DNA from: a virus
DNA: 42,521 bases
Reading direction: 5' to 3' (one strand)
Virus record (IMG/VR): IMGVR_UViG_3300048591_000148
Location: 1-42,521 of that record
Below, piece by piece: positions 2,055 to 42,268 of this stretch (its first letter is position 1; each line of letters starts with the position of its first letter). The translations under genes were made by a program, and so were the position numbers. The notes under the pieces were generated by a model, which did no database searches, was not told the origin of the DNA, and was given only the letters and a program-made list of their open reading frames with translations.

Positions 2055-2219
2055 ATGCAGCAAAAAAATAAGAAGTTTCCAATTCCTGGGGTGATTTACA
2101 GTATTGCATCTAAGGGAGCTGGATGGTTTCACTATCCGTTCAATACTGGAGAGAATAAGAAGAAACTCGAAGAGTTGAAAAGGAGTTTAGATGCCACCAG
2201 CAACACAGCAAAAGGCTGA
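2055..2219 (+). CDS. Small hypothetical protein (54 residues), KTSC-like
   Basis: ATG 2055 follows AAGGAGTTA (2043-2051), one of the standard ribosome sites of this phage. The protein is basic, with PIPGVIYSIASKGAGWFHYPF in the middle; a short 'I..I.Y....G....F' pattern is reminiscent of KTSC-type small domains, but this is weak. The end overlaps the start of the kinase-phosphatase gene, so the two are translationally coupled. Confidence 0.65.
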   Translation: MQQKNKKFPIPGVIYSIASKGAGWFHYPFNTGENKKKLEELKRSLDATSNTAKG

Positions 2220-3084
2220 ACGACAAGTTGCACAAGCCAATCCTAAACTTTTAGCATTGAAGGGGCTTCCAGCATCAGGTAAAACTACCTATGCTCGGGA
2301 GCTAGTAGCTAAAGGGTGGGTTCGTGTGAACAAAGATGATTTACGAGCTATGCTACATAATAGCAAGTTCAGTAGACCAAATGAAGCGTTTGTTCTTCAG
2401 TTACGTGATGAAATTATCATCCGTGCTCTAGTAAACGAACAAAATGTAGTAGTGGATGACACTAACTTAGACCCTAAACATGCTGACCAGTTCAAGAGCA
2501 TCGCAGGTGAGTTTATGGCAGATTACGAAGAGAAGTTCTTTGACACACCAGTTAAAGAGTGTATCAAGCGTAACGCATTACGTGAGAATCCAGTACCAGA
2601 GAAAGTCATATATCAGATGTACAACAAGTACATTGACCCACCAGTAACACCAGTGGCATATGACGATAGTAAAGAAGAGTGTATTATAGTTGATGTTGAT
2701 GGTACTCTAGCACACATCGCAGATGGTCGCAGTCCTTATGACGCAAGCCGAGCCATGAACGATGAAGTTGATGATGCTGTTAGTGTAGTCACCGCTATGA
2801 TGTACGAACACGGCTATAAGGTTATTGTCCTTACTGGTCGAGATGGCAAAGACCGACAGGTAACAGAAGAATGGTTAGAAGCTAACGGAATCCCTTACGA
2901 TGAGTTATACACTCGAGCTGAAGGTGACACCCGTAAAGATTCAATAATCAAAGAAGAGTTGTATCGTGCACATGTAGAAGCAAGGTTTAACGTGAAGTTC
3001 GTTATGGATGACCGAAACCAAGTAGTTGATATGTGGCGTAAACTTGGGCTTAAATGCTTCCAGGTAGCAGAGGGAAACTTTTAA
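2191..3084 (+). CDS. Polynucleotide 5'-kinase / 3'-phosphatase (T4 Pnkp type)
   Basis: 297 residues in two domains. The N-terminal kinase has a P-loop GLPASGKTT at 25-33, NKDDLR at 47-52 and a lid-like basic stretch around 126-131. The C-terminal HAD phosphatase has DVDGTLA at 168-174 (nucleophile D168, acid/base D170), VLTGRDG further on, and VMDDR near 277. This is the T4 Pnkp arrangement: it phosphorylates 5'-OH RNA ends and removes 2',3'-cyclic or 3' phosphates, making ends sealable by RNA ligase. With the ligase at 345 it forms a complete repair route for tRNAs cut by anticodon nucleases. A ribosome site AAAGGAG lies 7 bases before ATG 2191. Confidence 0.92.
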   Translation: MPPATQQKAERQVAQANPKLLALKGLPASGKTTYARELVAKGWVRVNKDDLRAMLHNSKFSRPNEAFVLQLRDEIIIRALVNEQNVVVDDTNLDPKHADQFKSIAGEFMADYEEKFFDTPVKECIKRNALRENPVPEKVIYQMYNKYIDPPVTPVAYDDSKEECIIVDVDGTLAHIADGRSPYDASRAMNDEVDDAVSVVTAMMYEHGYKVIVLTGRDGKDRQVTEEWLEANGIPYDELYTRAEGDTRKDSIIKEELYRAHVEARFNVKFVMDDRNQVVDMWRKLGLKCFQVAEGNF

Positions 3085-29953: not shown

Positions 29954-30481
29954 ATGAAACTATATACAATAAATGCAACGTGTGAACAACACAAGTATAC
30001 TATACAAGAAAATAAGACTAATCACAAGTCATATCCTGCTAGGGTTGCCGAGGTTCTAGCACAACATAAAATTGACGGTTTTACAATAGAGCGTGTTGAG
30101 GGATATTGGCAAGGTGTACCAGAGAAAAGCTATAAAATATCTGTAGCACTTGAGGATACATCGGTGGTTGACAGCATCTGTACAATGTTGCGTGATATGT
30201 TCCAACAGGATGCTGTAATGTTGACAGATGAGGTATTAAATGATATGCATTATACTGATGCAACATTCCCAGAAATCAAGGATATTCTTGACAGGTCATT
30301 GACAGGAGAGCAAACAGATGTTATAGGATTCAACGCTGATTATGCGAAGAAAATACAGACACTGTTTGGGGTTGACGGATTGACATTAAAGTTGAATGGT
30401 AAGCTAGGAGCGATGGTGTTTGAGAATACCTCGACAGACAACGCTGGTTATGGTTTAATAATGCCACTAAAGGTTAAATAA
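29954..30481 (+). CDS. Two-domain early protein; C-terminal part resembles a sliding-clamp end
   Basis: 175 residues. N-terminal part: MKLYTINATCEQHKYTIQEN; residues about 30-95 have a beta-alpha pattern. C-terminal part, about 125-174: FNADYAKKIQTLFGVDGLTL ... YGLIMPLKV, which resembles the final strand-helix-strand of bacterial beta clamps (FNxxYL...LMPxRL). If true it could imitate or bind the host replisome clamp. Weak, pattern-level similarity only. ATG has AAAGG 10 bases upstream and follows two promoters. Confidence 0.62.
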   Translation: MKLYTINATCEQHKYTIQENKTNHKSYPARVAEVLAQHKIDGFTIERVEGYWQGVPEKSYKISVALEDTSVVDSICTMLRDMFQQDAVMLTDEVLNDMHYTDATFPEIKDILDRSLTGEQTDVIGFNADYAKKIQTLFGVDGLTLKLNGKLGAMVFENTSTDNAGYGLIMPLKVK

Positions 30482-32048: not shown

Positions 32049-32077
32049 TTGACTTTTACATCAAAGTTTGATATAAT
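32049..32077 (+). promoter_or_regulatory. Early promoter A (shared family: TTGACT...AAAGTTTGATATAAT)
   Basis: TTGACT at 32049-32054 and TATAAT at 32072-32077 with 17 bases between; the 15 bases AAAGTTTGATATAAT are identical at 34594-34608 and 37699-37713. The -10 is of extended TGn type. Predicted start is about 32084, at the base of the first RNA hairpin. Confidence 0.9.
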
Positions 32078-32083
32078 CCTTAC

Positions 32084-32480
32084 ATGTCATTAACGACATA
32101 ACGGCACAATTAAACTAGGTGTAATCGAGTAAGTAGCCCATAAGGTGAAGTTACAACTGGACAAACAATCAATGAGCCACGTGTTCTCAGATTCACGTGG
32201 ATAGTAAAAAATCGACACGAGCGTAATATCTTAATATCAAGGAATGTTCTGACGGCTTGAGCACCTTGTCCCCGATACTCTAAGGAGTTAGCGAGATACG
32301 CAAAACTGGCATACAGCCATCTAGTAGGGAAGTGAAATAACTAATCAGAATTGCACGGAGAAGTGCTACGGTGGTTAGGCTAGATAAGGGTATGTTCTCA
32401 TTGGTTCGACACTGTAGTAGCTAACTTCTAATAGCTCGCCCGAGGTAATATCGGGGAAGAAGAAGCCGAAGGTGTAATTT
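32084..32480 (+). ncRNA. Large structured RNA (about 400 nt), unassigned class
   Basis: No long gene. Pairings visible in order: ATGTC/GACAT (32084-32099) right at the predicted 5' end; CCACGTG/CACGTGG (32177-32200); CAAGG/CCTTG (32238-32268); a 9-pair long helix TCCCCGATA (32269-32277) with TATCGGGGA (32449-32457); inside it a 10-pair helix AGGAGTTAGC (32283-32292) with GCTAACTTCT (32420-32429); then GAGATAC (32293-32299) with GTAT-CTC (32390-32399, bulge); ATCTAG/CTAGAT (32319-32324/32380-32385); TGGC/GCCA; GCAC/GTGC. A rival local hairpin CCCGA/TCGGG (32439-32455) overlaps the long helix, allowing a switch. AGGTGTAAT occurs near both ends (32117, 32470). It precedes the helicase operon. 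Confidence 0.7.
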
Positions 32481-32482
32481 AA

Positions 32483-32548
32483 TGGAGGAGATTGAATATA
32501 GCGATGAGGTTACAGGACTATCCACTACACTACGAAGACACGAGTAAA
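32483..32548 (+). CDS. Possible 21-residue leader peptide
   Basis: ATG 32483 follows GAAGG (32468-32472) and encodes MEEIEYSDEVTGLSTTLRRH E. It opens directly at the 3' end of the structured RNA and ends inside the next reading frame. It may be a leader peptide coupled to the downstream gene, or simply part of it. Low confidence. Confidence 0.3.
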
Positions 32549-32578: not shown

Positions 32579-32755
32579 ATGAGCGATAAAGTAACAACAA
32601 AGAAACCCACTACAGAAGTAGTAAAAACTAAGAATACATTAAGCGTTTACACATATTTGAACTTTAAGCGATTTGGTGTTATGGTATCCATTGATGATGG
32701 TATCAAAATTAACGTACTAGTATTCGAGACACATATCAAGTTTGAAAAACGATAG
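32579..32755 (+). CDS. Small hypothetical protein (58 residues)
   Basis: Chosen start ATG 32579 has AGAAGG (32565-32570) eight bases upstream. In-frame earlier starts at 32504 and 32492 exist but have poorer spacing to GGAGGAG at 32484-32490, so the N-terminus is uncertain. MSDKVTTKKPTTEVVKTKNT, then a beta-type part (YLNFKRFGVMVSIDDGIKIN). Unknown. Confidence 0.55.
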   Translation: MSDKVTTKKPTTEVVKTKNTLSVYTYLNFKRFGVMVSIDDGIKINVLVFETHIKFEKR

Positions 32756-32763
32756 GGGAGTTT

Positions 32764-33045
32764 ATGGCAAGGAAAAAGAAAGTAGAACATGTCGGGCAGG
32801 GGAATCTTCTATCTGGCGAAATCGAAGGTCTTGATAAACTTGTCAGTAAACCCGAGGTACTAGAGCACGAAGGATTGAAGGTTGTCAAGTTGGTTGTGCC
32901 ACAAGGTGAAACACCGCAGTACACTACGACAGCATTAGAGATAGCTAGAAAACTAGCACCAGATATTAAGTCTAAAGAACGACCACCATGGTTACAACAG
33001 GGGTGGCAAGTCAAGAGACGCAAAAAGAGAGCAGGAGCATTATGA
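32764..33045 (+). CDS. Basic hypothetical protein (93 residues)
   Basis: ATG 32764 follows TAGGGGAG. MARKKKVEHVGQGNLLSGEI; both ends are very basic (KRRKKR at the C-terminus), suggesting nucleic-acid binding. It overlaps the helicase ATG (ATGA) and likely acts with it. No family recognised. Confidence 0.65.
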   Translation: MARKKKVEHVGQGNLLSGEIEGLDKLVSKPEVLEHEGLKVVKLVVPQGETPQYTTTALEIARKLAPDIKSKERPPWLQQGWQVKRRKKRAGAL

Positions 33046-34274
33046 TACAAGCACGAGCTATAGAAATAATGCTATCTGGCGAGAATGTACTATTGACAGG
33101 ACAAGCTGGTAGTGGTAAAACATGGACAATCAATGAGTTTGTGAAACAGGCGAAACGTAAGCACAAAAAAGTTGTTGTTACTGCCACTACTGGTCTTGCA
33201 TCATCACATATTGGTGGACAAACTATACATAGCTGGTCTGGCATGGGGTTAGATGACCACTTGCACGATGACTACATCTATACAATGAGTGAAACTAGGA
33301 AGAAAGACATTCGCAAAACTGATGTTCTGATAATTGACGAAATTAGTATGATGCATGATTATAACTTGGATATGGTTGACGAAGCCATGAGGATTATCCG
33401 TGAGAATGATAGTCCGTTTGGGGGGATTCAAGTTATCCTAGTTGGAGACTTCTTTCAGTTGCCACCAGTGAAACAAGGTGGTTCTGGTAAGTTTGTAGTA
33501 TTCAGTAAAGTTTGGAAGCAAATGAATGTCAAGATATGTTACCTAGAGGAGCAGCACCGACAAGACGATGCGAGATTAGAGGACATCTTAAACGCCATGC
33601 GTGATGGTACGTTGAAACAACGACACATCGACCTCTTAAAGAGTCGTATGGGGCATAAGGCAACCGATAATGTGACTAGATTGTATACGCTGAACATTGA
33701 TGTTGAGAATATCAACAGTGCAAAACTTGCAGAGATACCAGGAGATACGCATTACTATTTGCGTACAAGCCGAGGGCAGTCCTGGAACGATTTGCAAATA
33801 CTGCAGAAAAATGTTTTAGCACCAGAACGATTGGAGATTAAACTAGGGGCTGTCGTTATGGCAGTAAAGAACGACCCAGAAGGCAGGTATTTTAATGGAA
33901 GTATTGGTGTGGTTACTGATTTTTCAACTGACGGTTTTCCTATTGTTGATTTTGGGGATATGTACGCTTATACTGTATACCCTCAAGAGTGGGAATACAA
34001 GCGTGGCGATAGGACTACTGCAGCGATTACTCAAATACCTATAAGATTAGCATATGCTATCACCGTCCATAAATCGCAAGGAATGACCCTGGATACCGCA
34101 GAATTAGACCTATCAAAGGCTTTTGTGGAAGGAATGGGATATGTAGGACTCTCACGAGTACGCAGTTTAGAGACCCTATATTTGAAGGGGATAAATCAAC
34201 GAGCATTGATGGTTAGTGCAGTGGCACGAGCTATAGATGCTAAGTTTAAGGAGAAGAGTAAAGCAAATGAATAG
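33042..34274 (+). CDS. PIF1-/RecD-like superfamily 1 DNA helicase
   Basis: 410 residues. Walker A GQAGSGKT at 20-27, Walker B VLIIDEIS with D99/E100, motif III VGDFFQLPPV near 132, and a late AYAITVHKSQGMTLD motif. This pattern is that of PIF1/RecD2 helicases, which unwind DNA 5' to 3' in replication or recombination. Start in ATGA overlap; GCAGGAG 5 bases before. The longer upstream reading is not used. It is the only helicase in the window. Confidence 0.88.
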   Translation: MIQARAIEIMLSGENVLLTGQAGSGKTWTINEFVKQAKRKHKKVVVTATTGLASSHIGGQTIHSWSGMGLDDHLHDDYIYTMSETRKKDIRKTDVLIIDEISMMHDYNLDMVDEAMRIIRENDSPFGGIQVILVGDFFQLPPVKQGGSGKFVVFSKVWKQMNVKICYLEEQHRQDDARLEDILNAMRDGTLKQRHIDLLKSRMGHKATDNVTRLYTLNIDVENINSAKLAEIPGDTHYYLRTSRGQSWNDLQILQKNVLAPERLEIKLGAVVMAVKNDPEGRYFNGSIGVVTDFSTDGFPIVDFGDMYAYTVYPQEWEYKRGDRTTAAITQIPIRLAYAITVHKSQGMTLDTAELDLSKAFVEGMGYVGLSRVRSLETLYLKGINQRALMVSAVARAIDAKFKEKSKANE

Positions 34275-34404
34275 GAATATTAACCTTATCGAGAAACTAA
34301 TAACACGAAAGAGGTTACTAGACGAAGCAGCAAAACGCAGGGCTGAGAAACGCAGGAAGCAAAAGAAGTTTGCCAAAGAACAACGCAGAAAAAATCCCCA
34401 ATAA
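34267..34404 (+). CDS. Small very basic protein (45 residues)
   Basis: ATG 34267 overlaps the helicase stop region. MNRNINLIEKLITRKRLLDE then RRAEKRRKQKKFAKEQRRK; one basic amphipathic helix, likely nucleic-acid binding. It ends just before the hairpin at 34410. Confidence 0.58.
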   Translation: MNRNINLIEKLITRKRLLDEAAKRRAEKRRKQKKFAKEQRRKNPQ

Positions 34405-34482
34405 AAAAGAACCCAGGCATAGGGGAGTCCTGGGTTCAAAGAAAGGAGTTAAGCGTAGAGTAACGACAAAGAAATCTCTACA
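34402..34482 (-). ncRNA. Small RNA with anti-Shine-Dalgarno-like seed, unassigned class
   Basis: Predicted from the promoter at 34489-34517 and a minus-strand terminator. 5' part: GTAGAG (34476-34481) pairs with CTCTAC (34455-34460). Then an unpaired stretch CTTAACTCCTTTCTTT (34437-34452 region), complementary to the phage ribosome sites AAGGAGTTA and like the 16S rRNA 3' tail. 3' part: GAACCCAGG/CCTGGGTTC (34409-34437) followed by TTTTTT (34403-34408) on the minus strand. Opposite strand has no T-tract after the hairpin. About 80 nt. No class name can be given. Expression is inferred only. Confidence 0.68.
34403..34437 (-). terminator. Terminator of the minus-strand small RNA
   Basis: GAACCCAGG and CCTGGGTTC form a 9-pair stem with an 11-base loop; T-run TTTTTT follows on the minus strand only (on plus, the stem is followed by AAAGAAAGG). 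Therefore a minus-strand terminator. It may also fold in the tail of the plus-strand helicase mRNA without being a true terminator. Confidence 0.75.
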
Positions 34483-34508
34483 CCAGGTATTATACCATAA
34501 CTCCTTTC
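34441..34508. repeat. Inverted repeat GAAAGGAGTTA / TAACTCCTTTC
   Basis: The 11-base arms at 34441-34451 and 34498-34508 are perfect inverted copies, with GTAGAG/CTCTAC nested inside. The right arm lies within the spacer of the minus-strand promoter. It may act as operator, or fold in any plus-strand read-through RNA. Confidence 0.7.
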
Positions 34509-34517
34509 AAATGTCAA
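34489..34517 (-). promoter_or_regulatory. Minus-strand promoter of the small RNA, perfect consensus
   Basis: On the minus strand: -35 TTGACA (34512-34517), 17-base spacer, -10 TATAAT (34489-34494), predicted start about 34482. No minus-strand gene lies downstream, only an 80-base interval to a terminator. Confidence 0.83.
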
Positions 34518-34579: not shown

Positions 34580-34608
34580 TTGACTTTTTGAGTAAAGTTT
34601 GATATAAT
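34580..34608 (+). promoter_or_regulatory. Early promoter B (shared family)
   Basis: TTGACT at 34580-34585 and TATAAT at 34603-34608 with 17 bases between; shares AAAGTTTGATATAAT with the promoters at 32049 and 37685. It drives the recombination operon from 34632. Confidence 0.9.
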
Positions 34609-37684: not shown

Positions 37685-37713
37685 TTGACTTTTCAAGCAA
37701 AGTTTGATATAAT
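37685..37713 (+). promoter_or_regulatory. Early promoter C (shared family)
   Basis: TTGACT at 37685-37690, TATAAT at 37708-37713, 17-base spacer; shares AAAGTTTGATATAAT with the two other promoters. It drives the transglycosylase gene and the tRNA array. Confidence 0.9.
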
Positions 37714-37826: not shown

Positions 37827-38440
37827 ATTCGTACAATCGTAAAATGGTCAAAGCCAGCAGCACTCCTTGCTGTTAGTGTAGTCCTTTTAGTTGCTTTTGT
37901 GTTTACGAAGATAGCACATGCTAATTCGATGAATCAGGCTCAACAGAGTGTTTTTCAGTCGCAACAAGAGACTAATAAAATCAAAACTCAACTTGAAGAA
38001 GTAAGTTCTGAAAAGCAGAAACTCAATAAAGAGGTTCAGCTAAAAGAAGAGAAGATAAACCAGCTCGAGAAGGAGAACTCCGAGTTAAAAGGATAAAGCA
38101 AGCTAAACTAGAAGCACAGCGAAAAGCTGCAGCTAGTTCCCAAAAGAGTGTATCTCGGGTAGCTGTCAGTGGAAACTGCTCAGATTGGCTTGCTCAGGCT
38201 GGTATATCAGATACCCATTCTGCGATGATTTTAATTAACAAAGAATCTGGGTGTAACCCTAATGCAGTCAATAAGTCCTCTGGGGCTTGTGGCGTAGCAC
38301 AAGAATTGCCTTGCGGTAAATCTGGGTGTTCATTAGGAGACGGTGCTTGCCAAGTTAGATGGATGAAGTCTTATGTTGAAGGTCGCTACGGTGGCTTTGC
38401 ACAGGCTCTAGCGTTTCATTACGCAAATAACTGGTATTAG
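37827..38440 (+). CDS. Secreted coiled-coil lytic transglycosylase-like protein, made by -1 frameshift
   Basis: Start ATT 37827, six bases after GAAAGGA (37815-37821); no ATG/GTG/TTG exists upstream in frame. Frame 1 to 38096 (89 residues): basic n-region, hydrophobic h-region (AALLAVSVVLLVAFVF), cleavage-like AHA-NS near 32, then coiled coil. Stop TAA 38094. A -1 slip at AAAA (38087-38090) continues the coil as RIKQAKLEAQRKAAASS and adds a transglycosylase domain: INKESGCNPNAVNKSSGACG with the catalytic-type Glu, an Apf/Rpf-like signature, ending at 38440. Total about 204 residues. Degrades wall glycan from outside. Frameshift by sequencing error is the alternative. Confidence 0.75.
38070..38096 (+). 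promoter_or_regulatory. Putative programmed -1 ribosomal frameshift site
   Basis: AAGGAG at 38070-38075 (Shine-Dalgarno-like) lies 11 bases before AAAA (38087-38090), followed by GGA TAA in frame zero. An internal SD about 10-14 bases upstream of an A-rich slip site stimulates -1 shifts in dnaX. The shifted frame starts AGG at 38090 and keeps the coiled coil uninterrupted. Confidence 0.6.
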
Positions 38441-38492
38441 TATCAAGGGTGAGCACCTGTTGCTCTCATGGAAGTCCCTCAAGCAACCATCG
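38441..38492 (+). other. Gene-free start of the tRNA region with hairpin GTTGCT/AGCAAC
   Basis: 38459-38487 shows GTTGCT and AGCAAC as 6-pair arms. No gene. Probably a leader of the RNA array. Confidence 0.4.
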
Positions 38493-38550
38493 GTCAGTGG
38501 ATGAGTGGGTGCACCAGGCATCACACTAGGTTCGAGTCCTAGCACTGGCA
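38493..38550 (+). tRNA. tRNA-like element 1, no anticodon arm
   Basis: T arm CTAGG-TTCGAGT-CCTAG (38526-38542) is perfect and the acceptor pairs GTCAGTG (38493-38499) with CACTGGC (38543-38549), one G-T pair. Only 26 bases separate the 5' acceptor strand and the T arm, against about 42 in a normal tRNA, so no complete D plus anticodon arms fit. One stem GATG/CATC is possible. CCA is not encoded. Probably a minimal tRNA mimic or relic. Confidence 0.45.
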
Positions 38551-38744
38551 TTTTATTCCCCTCGAGGGATTAGGTTTTGACCAAGAATAAAGCATGTTGG
38601 TGGTCTCCGTGCTTTCCCTATTTAAGTACACGTATGCCCTACGGCACGGCACATAGTTTGCCCTTGAAGCCAGTAGGTGTTGGCGTTCCGTTGCCCCACA
38701 AGACCATTAATAGGAAACGATAGGGGGCGATTACGTGTATTTAC
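38551..38744 (+). other. Structured gene-free stretch with pseudoknot-type pairings
   Basis: CCCTAT (38616-38621) pairs ATAGGG (38720-38725), and TACACGTA (38627-38634) pairs TACGTGTA (38732-38739). Order A-B-A'-B' is that of a pseudoknot. A palindrome CCCTCGAGGG-like element lies at about 38565. No gene on either strand fits, so it is probably RNA processed with the flanking tRNAs. Confidence 0.5.
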
Positions 38745-38831
38745 CGAGTGGGGGTGAAGATGGCGAGTCACAACTGTCTGTAAAACAGTTCCCTTCGGGG
38801 TTAGTTGGTTCGAATCCAACCCACTTGACCA
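38745..38831 (+). tRNA. tRNA-Tyr (GTA)
   Basis: Acceptor CGAGTGG/CCACTTG (one G-T), D arm GTGA/TCAC, anticodon stem ACTGT/ACAGT with loop CTGTAAA giving GTA, long variable arm CCC-TTC-GGG as expected for bacterial tRNA-Tyr, T arm GTTGG-TTCGAAT-CCAAC, A73 and encoded CCA. The only fully normal tRNA in the window. Confidence 0.92.
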
Positions 38832-38884
38832 ATTTAGTTTATTTGACGTGTCTGGCATAGCACAGTTATAGTATGCCCCTTTCT

Positions 38885-38961
38885 GTCGCAGTGGTGTAAG
38901 GTAGTTCACACCCCCAGCTCGGGGATATGAGGTTCAGGTTCAAGTCCTGACTGCGACTCCA
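38885..38961 (+). tRNA. tRNA-like element 2, abnormal anticodon arm
   Basis: Acceptor GTCGCAG/CTGCGAC is perfect, D arm GTGT/ACAC good, T arm TCAGG-TTCAAGT-CCTGA perfect, CCA encoded. The anticodon region does not form a 5-pair stem with 7-base loop: the best fold is CCCC-AGCTC-GGGG with a 5-base loop, or a CGG at the expected place with almost no stem. Isotype cannot be named. Total length, 77, is normal. Confidence 0.55.
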
Positions 38962-38965
38962 ATTT

Positions 38966-39047
38966 GGGGAAGATATGGATAGACCAGGCGTAAATCCGCA
39001 AGTCGGAAACCCTTGGCACGAGAGTTCGATTCTCTCCTTCTCCACCA
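38966..39047 (+). tRNA. tRNA-like element 3, abnormal anticodon region
   Basis: Acceptor GGGGAAG/CTTCTCC (one G-T), T arm GAGAG-TTCGATT-CTCTC and CCA are intact. It starts only 4 bases after element 2. The middle (46 bases) resembles a shortened class II tRNA: GGATAGAC is like the D loop of tRNA-Leu and AAG...CTT like a long variable arm, but only GCG-TAAATC-CGC (3 pairs) is left where the anticodon arm should be. Leu(TAA)-derived origin is speculative. Confidence 0.5.
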
Positions 39048-39280
39048 GACATCTGTCAACCAGGTGTAAGTCAGCCAAACGAGATTTCCGTAGAGCTGTT
39101 GATGACAGTTCCGTAGATTAACTCGCCAATCTCGAGCTATAGCTCCAGTATTAGTGGGAGTGCGTTCCCGTTACGTTTTAACTAAACAGGGGTTAATCAC
39201 TCTGTGGCACGGGCTGGGAAACCTAGCCGAACTCGTAACAAATTGGTTGACAGTTGTTTTGTAAAGTAAATGAGGAGAAT
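39048..39280 (+). other. Gene-free structured region after the tRNA array
   Basis: No gene on either strand. Local structures: GGGA-GTGCGT-TCCC (39158-39172 region), GGCTGGG-AAA-CCTAGCC (39210-39226 region, 7 pairs) with outer ACGGG/CTCGT, ATCTC palindromes near 39130, and TTCCGTAGA repeated at about 39088 and 39110. TTGACA at 39247 has no -10 partner. Probably a further RNA part of the array or the leader of the exonuclease operon. Confidence 0.4.
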
Positions 39281-41318: not shown

Positions 41319-41571
41319 GGGCTGGTTTATCACGCAAGATGGGAAAGTGATACGCAGTTCATCTAAGTTCATAAAACGTGTTGATGGGTGGAAAAACGTG
41401 GGGATAATGGCTAAAAAAGGCACGTTTAGAGTGACCTATAAGCCTGACTTTTACAATGAGTTCGATTTTGACAGTCCTGAAGACTTTTTGAACAAAGTTC
41501 TACCATGTTTTGAAAAAGAAGTATTGGAGCATATCTATGAAACAGATAGCAAAAGTACTAGTCGGCAGTAG
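41296..41571 (+). CDS. Hypothetical protein (91 residues)
   Basis: MSKYLKNKGWFITQDGKVIR; small basic N-terminus and mixed C-terminus. Its part from 41408 is duplicated at window positions 1-129. Overlaps the RlaP-like gene by 35 bases. Unknown function. Confidence 0.68.
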   Translation: MSKYLKNKGWFITQDGKVIRSSSKFIKRVDGWKNVGIMAKKGTFRVTYKPDFYNEFDFDSPEDFLNKVLPCFEKEVLEHIYETDSKSTSRQ

Positions 41572-42268
41572 ACTCCATGGGTTACATACTGAGTCTTCTG
41601 ATTTTGACTACCGTGGTATCCATATGCATGATGTTAAGGAAAAACTCTCTCCATTTCGTACGCTTAAAAATACGAGCTGGATTGAAGGGGACGAAGACAA
41701 CACATCGTACGAACTTGCTGATTTTTGTAAGCAAGCAGTCCACGGCAACGCAACCATTCTCGAAGTCTTCTTTAGTGATAACGTCATCGAAACGTCAGCC
41801 ATCCACCGTGAGTTACAAGAAAACTGGAAAAAGTTCATTGACACTAAGCGGTTTATCGCTGCATCCAGGGGATATGCTCACAATCAGTGGAATAAGTTTT
41901 ACAATTTCGAAGACGCTGGAGTGCTCGGACAGCATAGAACTGCGAAGTTCGCTGTTGCGTTCCTTCGAGTAATGTGGCAGTGTGAACAGTTCTTACTATC
42001 AGGCACATTCAAGTGTAACCTGGAAGATTCAGACCTGTATCCGCTATTGAAGAAAATCAAGCCTATGTCTCTCGAAGAGATTAGACCATTCACTCCTGAG
42101 ATTGTAGCAGCTATGGACGAAATGTCCAGGCGTGTAGCAGTTGCAGAGTCTGTTAGCCCAGTTATAGATTGGAAGCCAGACATAGAGTGGATTGAAGATT
42201 TCATCTACAGAGCATACAATAATGAGCTACTGGAATATAAATGGATGTATGAGGAGTTACAGCAGTGA
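41537..42268 (+). CDS. Polymerase-beta-fold nucleotidyltransferase, RlaP type (RNA-repair associated)
   Basis: 243 residues from ATG 41537 (GGAG 9 bases before). VLVGSRLHGLHTESSDFDYR: G10-S11 helix and D22-x-D24 metal site of the polymerase-beta superfamily. The rest is helical, with HNQWNKFYNF. RlaP-type proteins are genomically linked to RNA ligases and act in RNA end repair, perhaps adding nucleotides. Next gene is an RNA ligase (start in overlap). The other copy of the locus (1-601) has a 72-residue gene instead. Confidence 0.8.
   Translation: MKQIAKVLVGSRLHGLHTESSDFDYRGIHMHDVKEKLSPFRTLKNTSWIEGDEDNTSYELADFCKQAVHGNATILEVFFSDNVIETSAIHRELQENWKKFIDTKRFIAASRGYAHNQWNKFYNFEDAGVLGQHRTAKFAVAFLRVMWQCEQFLLSGTFKCNLEDSDLYPLLKKIKPMSLEEIRPFTPEIVAAMDEMSRRVAVAESVSPVIDWKPDIEWIEDFIYRAYNNELLEYKWMYEELQQ

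Follow-up and report, generated by a model that had tools for sequence, protein, structure and literature searches.

What is the role of a gene-free stretch that lies, behind a promoter of its own, at the head of a phage helicase operon? The window analysed here, the whole 42,521-nt IMG/VR virus record IMGVR_UViG_3300048591_000148, has the layout of an ordinary tailed phage, with structural genes running leftward, replication genes running rightward from ~29 kb, and an ordinary small/large terminase pair. The best matches to its Dda-like helicase among 84,980 species are Saccharibacteria genomes (47–57% identity), and we therefore infer that the host is a member of the Saccharibacteria. ARAGORN finds only tRNA-Tyr and tRNA-Ser in the window, at 38.7–39.0 kb; around them (38440–39240) are several tRNA-like stretches with GGTTCGA-type arms, which yield no extra tRNAs when introns are allowed. 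The window also encodes RNA repair proteins, namely an RNA ligase, a polynucleotide kinase-phosphatase and an RlaP-type nucleotidyltransferase (345–1268, 2191–3084 and 41510–42268), and an S-adenosylmethionine lyase-like protein (29954–30481; Pfam PF23780) whose gene is a possible anti-restriction gene.

The initial annotation read the stretch as an unassigned large structured RNA ahead of the helicase operon, beginning at a predicted transcription start and holding no protein gene. A sigma-70 promoter with an extended -10 (11/12 matches; Table 1) would start transcription near 32084, and the plus strand of the window has no frame of at least 20 codons between 32094 and 32481, nor is there any conserved protein reading in the stretch. 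No intrinsic terminator was found between the RNA and the operon, and no plus-strand terminator-like site occurs in the window before 39 kb. The first gene that follows is a remnant: the start of the 'MEQWKSP' gene is deleted in the window and intact in the related contigs L002, L003 and L009. More strong promoters of the same type (TTGACT, TG, TATAAT) occur at 34580–34608 (+), 37685–37713 (+) and 28808–28780 (-), which suggests that the promoters of this type form a co-regulated set.

Table 1. Positions in the window of the promoter, the structured RNA with its helices, and the operon that follows.
Feature	Position	Strand	Details
Sigma-70 promoter, extended -10	32049-32077	+	TTGACT-17-TATAAT, TG before -10
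Structured RNA, type A	32084-32484	+	homologues L009, L002, L003; no frame >=20 aa on +; covariation
H1, 5' hairpin	32084-32099	+	AUGUC/GACAU; L002 AUGCU/GGCAU
H2	32115-32160	+	CUAGgUGUAA/UUACAaCUGG; L002 CAGAAUGUAA/UUGCAUUUUG, 10/10 pairs
HL, long-range closing helix	32167-32176/32397-32406	+	10 pairs; L002 AACAUAUAAG/CUUAUAUGUU
H3 hairpin	32177-32200	+	CCACGUG/CACGUGG; L002 CGAGGUG/CACCUCG; L003 CGUGGUG/CACCACG
H5	32221-32301	+	GCGUA/UACGC (L009 GUGUA/UACAC); encloses H6 and H7
H6, core bulged hairpin (5' bulge)	32238-32268	+	types A, C, D
PK 5' strand, H6 loop	32253-32258	+	CGGCUU; L002/L003 GGGCUU
PL 5' strand	32269-32277	+	UCCCCGAUA, directly after H6
H7 hairpin	32277-32288	+	ACUC/GAGU; other letters at same position in L010-L014
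10-pair helix	32283-32292/32420-32429	+	AGGAGUUAGC/GCUAACUUCU, nested in the 9-pair helix PL
H7b/H8/H9/H10 branch	32308-32396	+	GGCAUAC/GUAUGUU (L002 GUACAGU/ACUGUAU), AUCUAG/CUAGAU, CUAAUC/GGUUAG, small hairpin
H11 hairpin	32419-32436	+	AGCU/AGCU; L002, L003 GGCU/AGCC
LH, local hairpin	32439-32443/32451-32455	+	CCCGA/UCGGG, competes with PL
PL 3' strand	32449-32457	+	UAUCGGGGA, shared with LH
PK 3' strand	32463-32468	+	AAGCCG; L002/L003 AAGCCC
First-gene remnant	32482-32547	+	C-terminal end of 'MEQWKSP' protein
Downstream operon	32579-34274	+	small proteins 32579-32755 and 32764-33045, then Dda-like helicase

Known RNA families offer no home for this element. Neither the stretch nor the other types of the RNA described below matched Rfam at the gathering score, a scope that includes GOLLD, ROOL, OLE, HEARO, tmRNA, RNase P, 6S, group I/II introns and riboswitches; with permissive settings the only families to appear were eukaryotic or sRNA ones at chance level, so that a confident match is absent at curated and permissive thresholds alike. 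ARAGORN detected no tmRNA (tRNA-like domain plus tag peptide) in the window, and with Rfam this bears out the earlier impression that the RNA matches neither tmRNA, RNase P, 6S nor a known intron core. A group I intron was considered and rejected, as Rfam gives no match and the transcript begins at the element, leaving no 5' exon. Comparison by blastn with 50,697 annotated phages returned short chance matches only, and a literature search of partial coverage found no paper on structured RNAs of candidate phyla radiation viruses or Saccharibacteria phages, a field that appears unexplored. Taken with the comparative evidence below, this makes the RNA a new family, to be placed broadly among large structured phage RNAs or leaders.

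With the helicase as query, 13 related contigs were recovered. Close homologues of the stretch itself occur in three IMG/VR phage contigs (L009, 89% identity; L002, 80%; L003, 73%), which together with the window make up type A. Type B (L004–L007) has a different gene-free sequence of ~300 nt behind the same promoter (e.g., L006:1861–2200), and types C and D (L010–L014), whose helicases are 65–68% identical, have a gene-free stretch of 280–440 nt after a promoter-like site. The same promoter precedes the RNA in L002–L007 and L009, and promoter-like boxes precede it in L010–L014. Across the family the RNA measures ~280–400 nt and always occupies the same spot ahead of the helicase genes; in L011, the promoter and the conserved RNA are separated by ~210 nt more than in L010 (L011:3780–3979), probably an insertion.

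In every type the RNA adjoins the Shine-Dalgarno of the next gene, with the 3' limit of the type A RNA just ahead of it. The 3' tail CCGUCAUAUCUAAAAAUA(A), running into the Shine-Dalgarno, is common to L010, L011, L012 and L013, while the next genes differ, and in type B L006 and L007 share one RNA end with its Shine-Dalgarno ahead of different genes. The unit formed by promoter, RNA and Shine-Dalgarno precedes at least five different first genes, no single gene being found directly downstream in all relatives, and the rest of the operon, with its small proteins and the helicase, is kept. That these three elements remain joined while the first gene is freely exchanged agrees with a unit that controls the whole operon and not one gene.

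Evidence that the stretch folds comes from comparison of these relatives. Folding of the single sequence gives -101.2 kcal/mol (z = -1.0), an energy that 15 of 100 shuffles equalled. For type A we propose 13 helices with 77 pairs, and when the four homologues are aligned neutrally with MAFFT these pairs are formed in 91.8% of cases, compared with 33–42% when the strands are slid; 11 of the 77 have changed on both sides, compared with at most 3 when slid. Between the window and L002, both partners differ in 18 of 86 pairs, of which 17 still pair in each of the two sequences, a count that is supportive and not independent, since the strands were matched by hand with the partners known beforehand. 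Every pair of the long-range closing helix HL is formed (100%, falling to at most 40% when slid), and in 4 of them both partners have changed. Covariation is seen in H6 and in six type A helices, and H11 covaries.

Beyond type A, a core is shared with types C and D. Among nine A, C and D sequences, which fall into about five groups and some of whose strands were matched by hand, H6 is 91% paired, compared with at most 43% when slid, and 6 of its 10 pairs have changed on both sides (19 cells). Equivalents of H5 and H7 are present in each of the three types with other letters, and few positions of the core are invariant. A covariance model, R1, built from H6 and its 3' tail in the nine members, scores these members at 48–64 bits, a match that follows from its construction, and other sequences at no more than 17.1 bits (28 loci). 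Compensatory changes, the check that the initial annotation proposed, are thus present both on the MAFFT alignment and in the nine-sequence core, and several hairpins besides the long helices, as it had described, form with other letters in homologues (H1, H3, H6 and H11). By covariation, lack of a protein reading and lack of an Rfam match, the stretch is an unassigned large structured RNA, as first proposed. It is worth stressing that folding energy was silent (z = -1) where comparison proves structure, which is a warning for energy-based RNA screens.

The reach of the family was assessed by several searches. A conserved-motif scan of IMG/VR returned only the three close homologues, and a core-motif scan only family members already known and matches in unrelated sequence. 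R1 gave nothing significant on L018–L021 and the genomes of L085–L087, and 393 Saccharibacteria-class genomes gave one weak match, inside a coding gene, with no host or prophage copy found. Type B was not detected by R1, and homology of L004–L007 to the main RNA is not claimed; this type has competing helices of its own, ACGAUGG/CCAUCG versus CCAUCG/CGGUGG.

The core also has a long-range helix, PL, drawn from a scan of the stretch for runs of at least 8 pairs. It is present in all nine A, C and D sequences as a perfect run of 8–9 Watson-Crick pairs with differing letters; one strand lies right after H6 and the other 20–35 nt before the Shine-Dalgarno, 125–195 nt apart. The pairing reads CUCUAGUA/UACUAGAG in L012, CUCUGGUA/UACCAGAG in L014, CUCUGGAA/UUCCAGAG in L010, ACUCUGGA/UCCAGAGU in L011 and CCCUGAUA/UAUCAGGG in L013. 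Runs of this length arose in 0–13 of 2000 shuffles per sequence, and strands combined across types mostly form 3–6 pairs (up to 9 for the close pair L010 and L011, and 6–7 for L014 with L010, L011 or L013). In types A and D, just 3' of PL, the end of the RNA pairs with the H6 loop in a pseudoknot, PK (L012 ACGGGUU/AACCCGU; L014 AGGGGUU/AACCCCU). No H6-loop pseudoknot was found in type C, where, as read from the sequences, the loop of another hairpin, UGACGG(G), is complementary to CCGUCA at the 3' end.

A local hairpin, LH, shares its 3' strand with that of PL, so the two pairings are mutually exclusive. LH has 8–9 pairs in L010, L011, L012 and L013, with strands CUGCUCUG/CAGGGUAG in L013, UACUC/GAGUA plus UGG/CCA in L010, and likewise in L012 and L014; it is weak in L002 and L003. 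Local-fold z-scores for LH range from -0.6 in the window to -4.3 in L012, those of the window, L002, L013 and L014 lying between -0.6 and -1.7; the hairpin is well supported in L010–L012 and weak in type A. Predicted energies are comparable, at -11 to -16 kcal/mol for the PL duplex and -10 to -17 kcal/mol for the local fold of the last 60 nt. The initial annotation had described nested helices of 9 and 10 pairs, 120–190 bases apart, and a hairpin competing with the former to allow two states. Both helices are there. The 9-pair helix, which is PL, has a counterpart in 9 of 9 sequences; the 10-pair helix varies in homologues by indels only, conflicts with H7 and H11, and, lacking covariation, is neither supported nor refuted. 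The competition likewise recurs in relatives with other letters, and the two states are to be read as mutually exclusive conserved pairings and not as an observed switch.

What, then, might such an RNA do? From sequence comparison, it is a rapidly evolving pseudoknotted RNA family with a dedicated promoter, the conserved 3' part of which ends 10–30 nt before the Shine-Dalgarno of the operon. The reading that we put first, tentatively and at slightly less than an even chance, is that it acts in cis as a bistable leader of the helicase operon. LH would form first as the RNA emerges; refolding to PL and PK would then draw the RNA together as a compact, knotted core, with its last helix just upstream of the ribosome-binding site, and the balance between LH and PL, perhaps tipped by a ligand, a protein or an sRNA of phage or host, would set the level of translation or transcription of the replication operon. 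A promoter just 5' of the RNA and the lack of a terminator before the next gene are what a cis-acting leader calls for, and the tail adjoining the Shine-Dalgarno in all types, the dedicated character of the promoter and the covariation speak for it as well. Against it stand the weakness of LH in L002 and L003, the modest LH z-scores in four sequences (the window, L002, L013 and L014), the changing downstream gene, which fits a trans-acting RNA equally, and a length beyond that of nearly all known leaders. Sequestering of the Shine-Dalgarno did not emerge consistently across types; sequestering by the C/U-rich 5' strand of PL, judged by eye, was rejected as it fails in L013. Relative to bistable 5' leaders of the riboswitch or attenuator kind, the RNA shares its own promoter, an end at the Shine-Dalgarno and exclusive 3' pairings, but has no strongly conserved ligand pocket, no terminator and no consistent sequestering, and its first gene varies from phage to phage.

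The main competitor, to which we give a lesser though still considerable weight, is an independent trans-acting phage RNA (a scaffold, a host-factor decoy or a GOLLD/ROOL-like oligomer) released by processing of the operon transcript at its 5' end. Its fold is kept while the sequence diverges past BLAST recognition, its position is constant while the downstream gene varies, and its size, its number of pseudoknots (counted by hand) and its own strong promoter would suit such an RNA. This view is favoured by the length of the RNA, by its rapid drift and by a downstream gene that varies, whereas the absence of a terminator, together with a conserved tail that continues into the Shine-Dalgarno in all types, favours the leader; there is, moreover, no recognisable processing site, and the RNA is not near the tRNA genes (38.7 kb). 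An RNA at the very start of the transcript, whichever gene comes next, could also act in cis on RNA polymerase, as put and EAR elements do, and bring about readthrough of the long rightward operon. We regard this as improbable: put RNAs are ~70 nt and EAR ~125 nt long, making the present RNA several times longer, no boxB- or put-like hairpins were recognised, and there would be little to antiterminate because no terminator-like site precedes 39 kb on the plus strand. Less probable again is a primer or R-loop transcript for a replication origin, like ColE1 RNA II with its alternative pairings; the promoter and structured transcript do adjoin replication genes, alternative pairings exist and types C and D have an A-rich stretch beyond the 3' end of the RNA, yet the GC skew turns near 29 kb, where the genes diverge, and not at 32.4 kb. 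That the pairings arose by chance in a gene-free stretch holding no structured RNA would agree with the ordinary single-sequence folding energy, but is scarcely credible given the compensatory changes in many helices and the complementarity of PL in five sequence groups.

Among characterized systems, the phage RNAs GOLLD and ROOL, whose function is unknown, adopt complex folds with pseudoknots, and like the present RNA they are long, multi-helix, pseudoknotted and non-coding (PMC12286853). The differences are the lack of an Rfam match here, a length of 280–400 nt as against often more than 800 for GOLLD, and a place at the head of a protein operon, whereas GOLLD and ROOL often lie beside tRNA genes. 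The crossing of H5 by PL recalls the P3/P7 topology of the group I intron core, but there is no P4–P6 domain, G-binding P7 bulge, exons or Rfam match, and PL is a perfect helix of 8–9 pairs. Like phi29 pRNA, the RNA keeps its fold while its sequence drifts; unlike it, it occurs in a phage with an ordinary terminase pair and differs in position and size.

Returning to the leader, we would suggest, with rather more reserve, that these RNAs form an undescribed class of phage RNA, fast-evolving, double-pseudoknotted and bistable, which would be portable with its promoter and ribosome-binding site, could stand ahead of different genes and would time the replication operon of Saccharibacteria phages. 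If the two-state reading is true, the RNA would give phage replication genes a portable control module. It occurs at a constant genomic position behind a promoter of its own and is diverse enough to fix the core fold, and is therefore directly testable.

A second RNA gene lies after the helicase gene on the minus strand (34403–34517), behind a perfect sigma-70 promoter (TTGACA-17-TATAAT, 34517–34489). Its product of ~80 nt would comprise a hairpin, GUAGAG/CUCUAC, with a near-invariant loop ending UUUGUCGUUA, then a single-stranded UUAACUCCUUUCU (anti-Shine-Dalgarno) and an intrinsic terminator. The loop UGUCGUUA (34403–34482) has its complement, UAACGACA, toward the 5' end of the main RNA (32084–32105) in the window, L009, L002 and L014, and 7–8 nt of it in L003 and L013; all of this complementarity could be chance. 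The second RNA follows the helicase in L002–L010, L012, L018 and, with a changed anti-Shine-Dalgarno stretch, L014, and occurs also in L208. It is far more conserved in sequence than the main RNA, and has the look of a phage sRNA that acts on translation.
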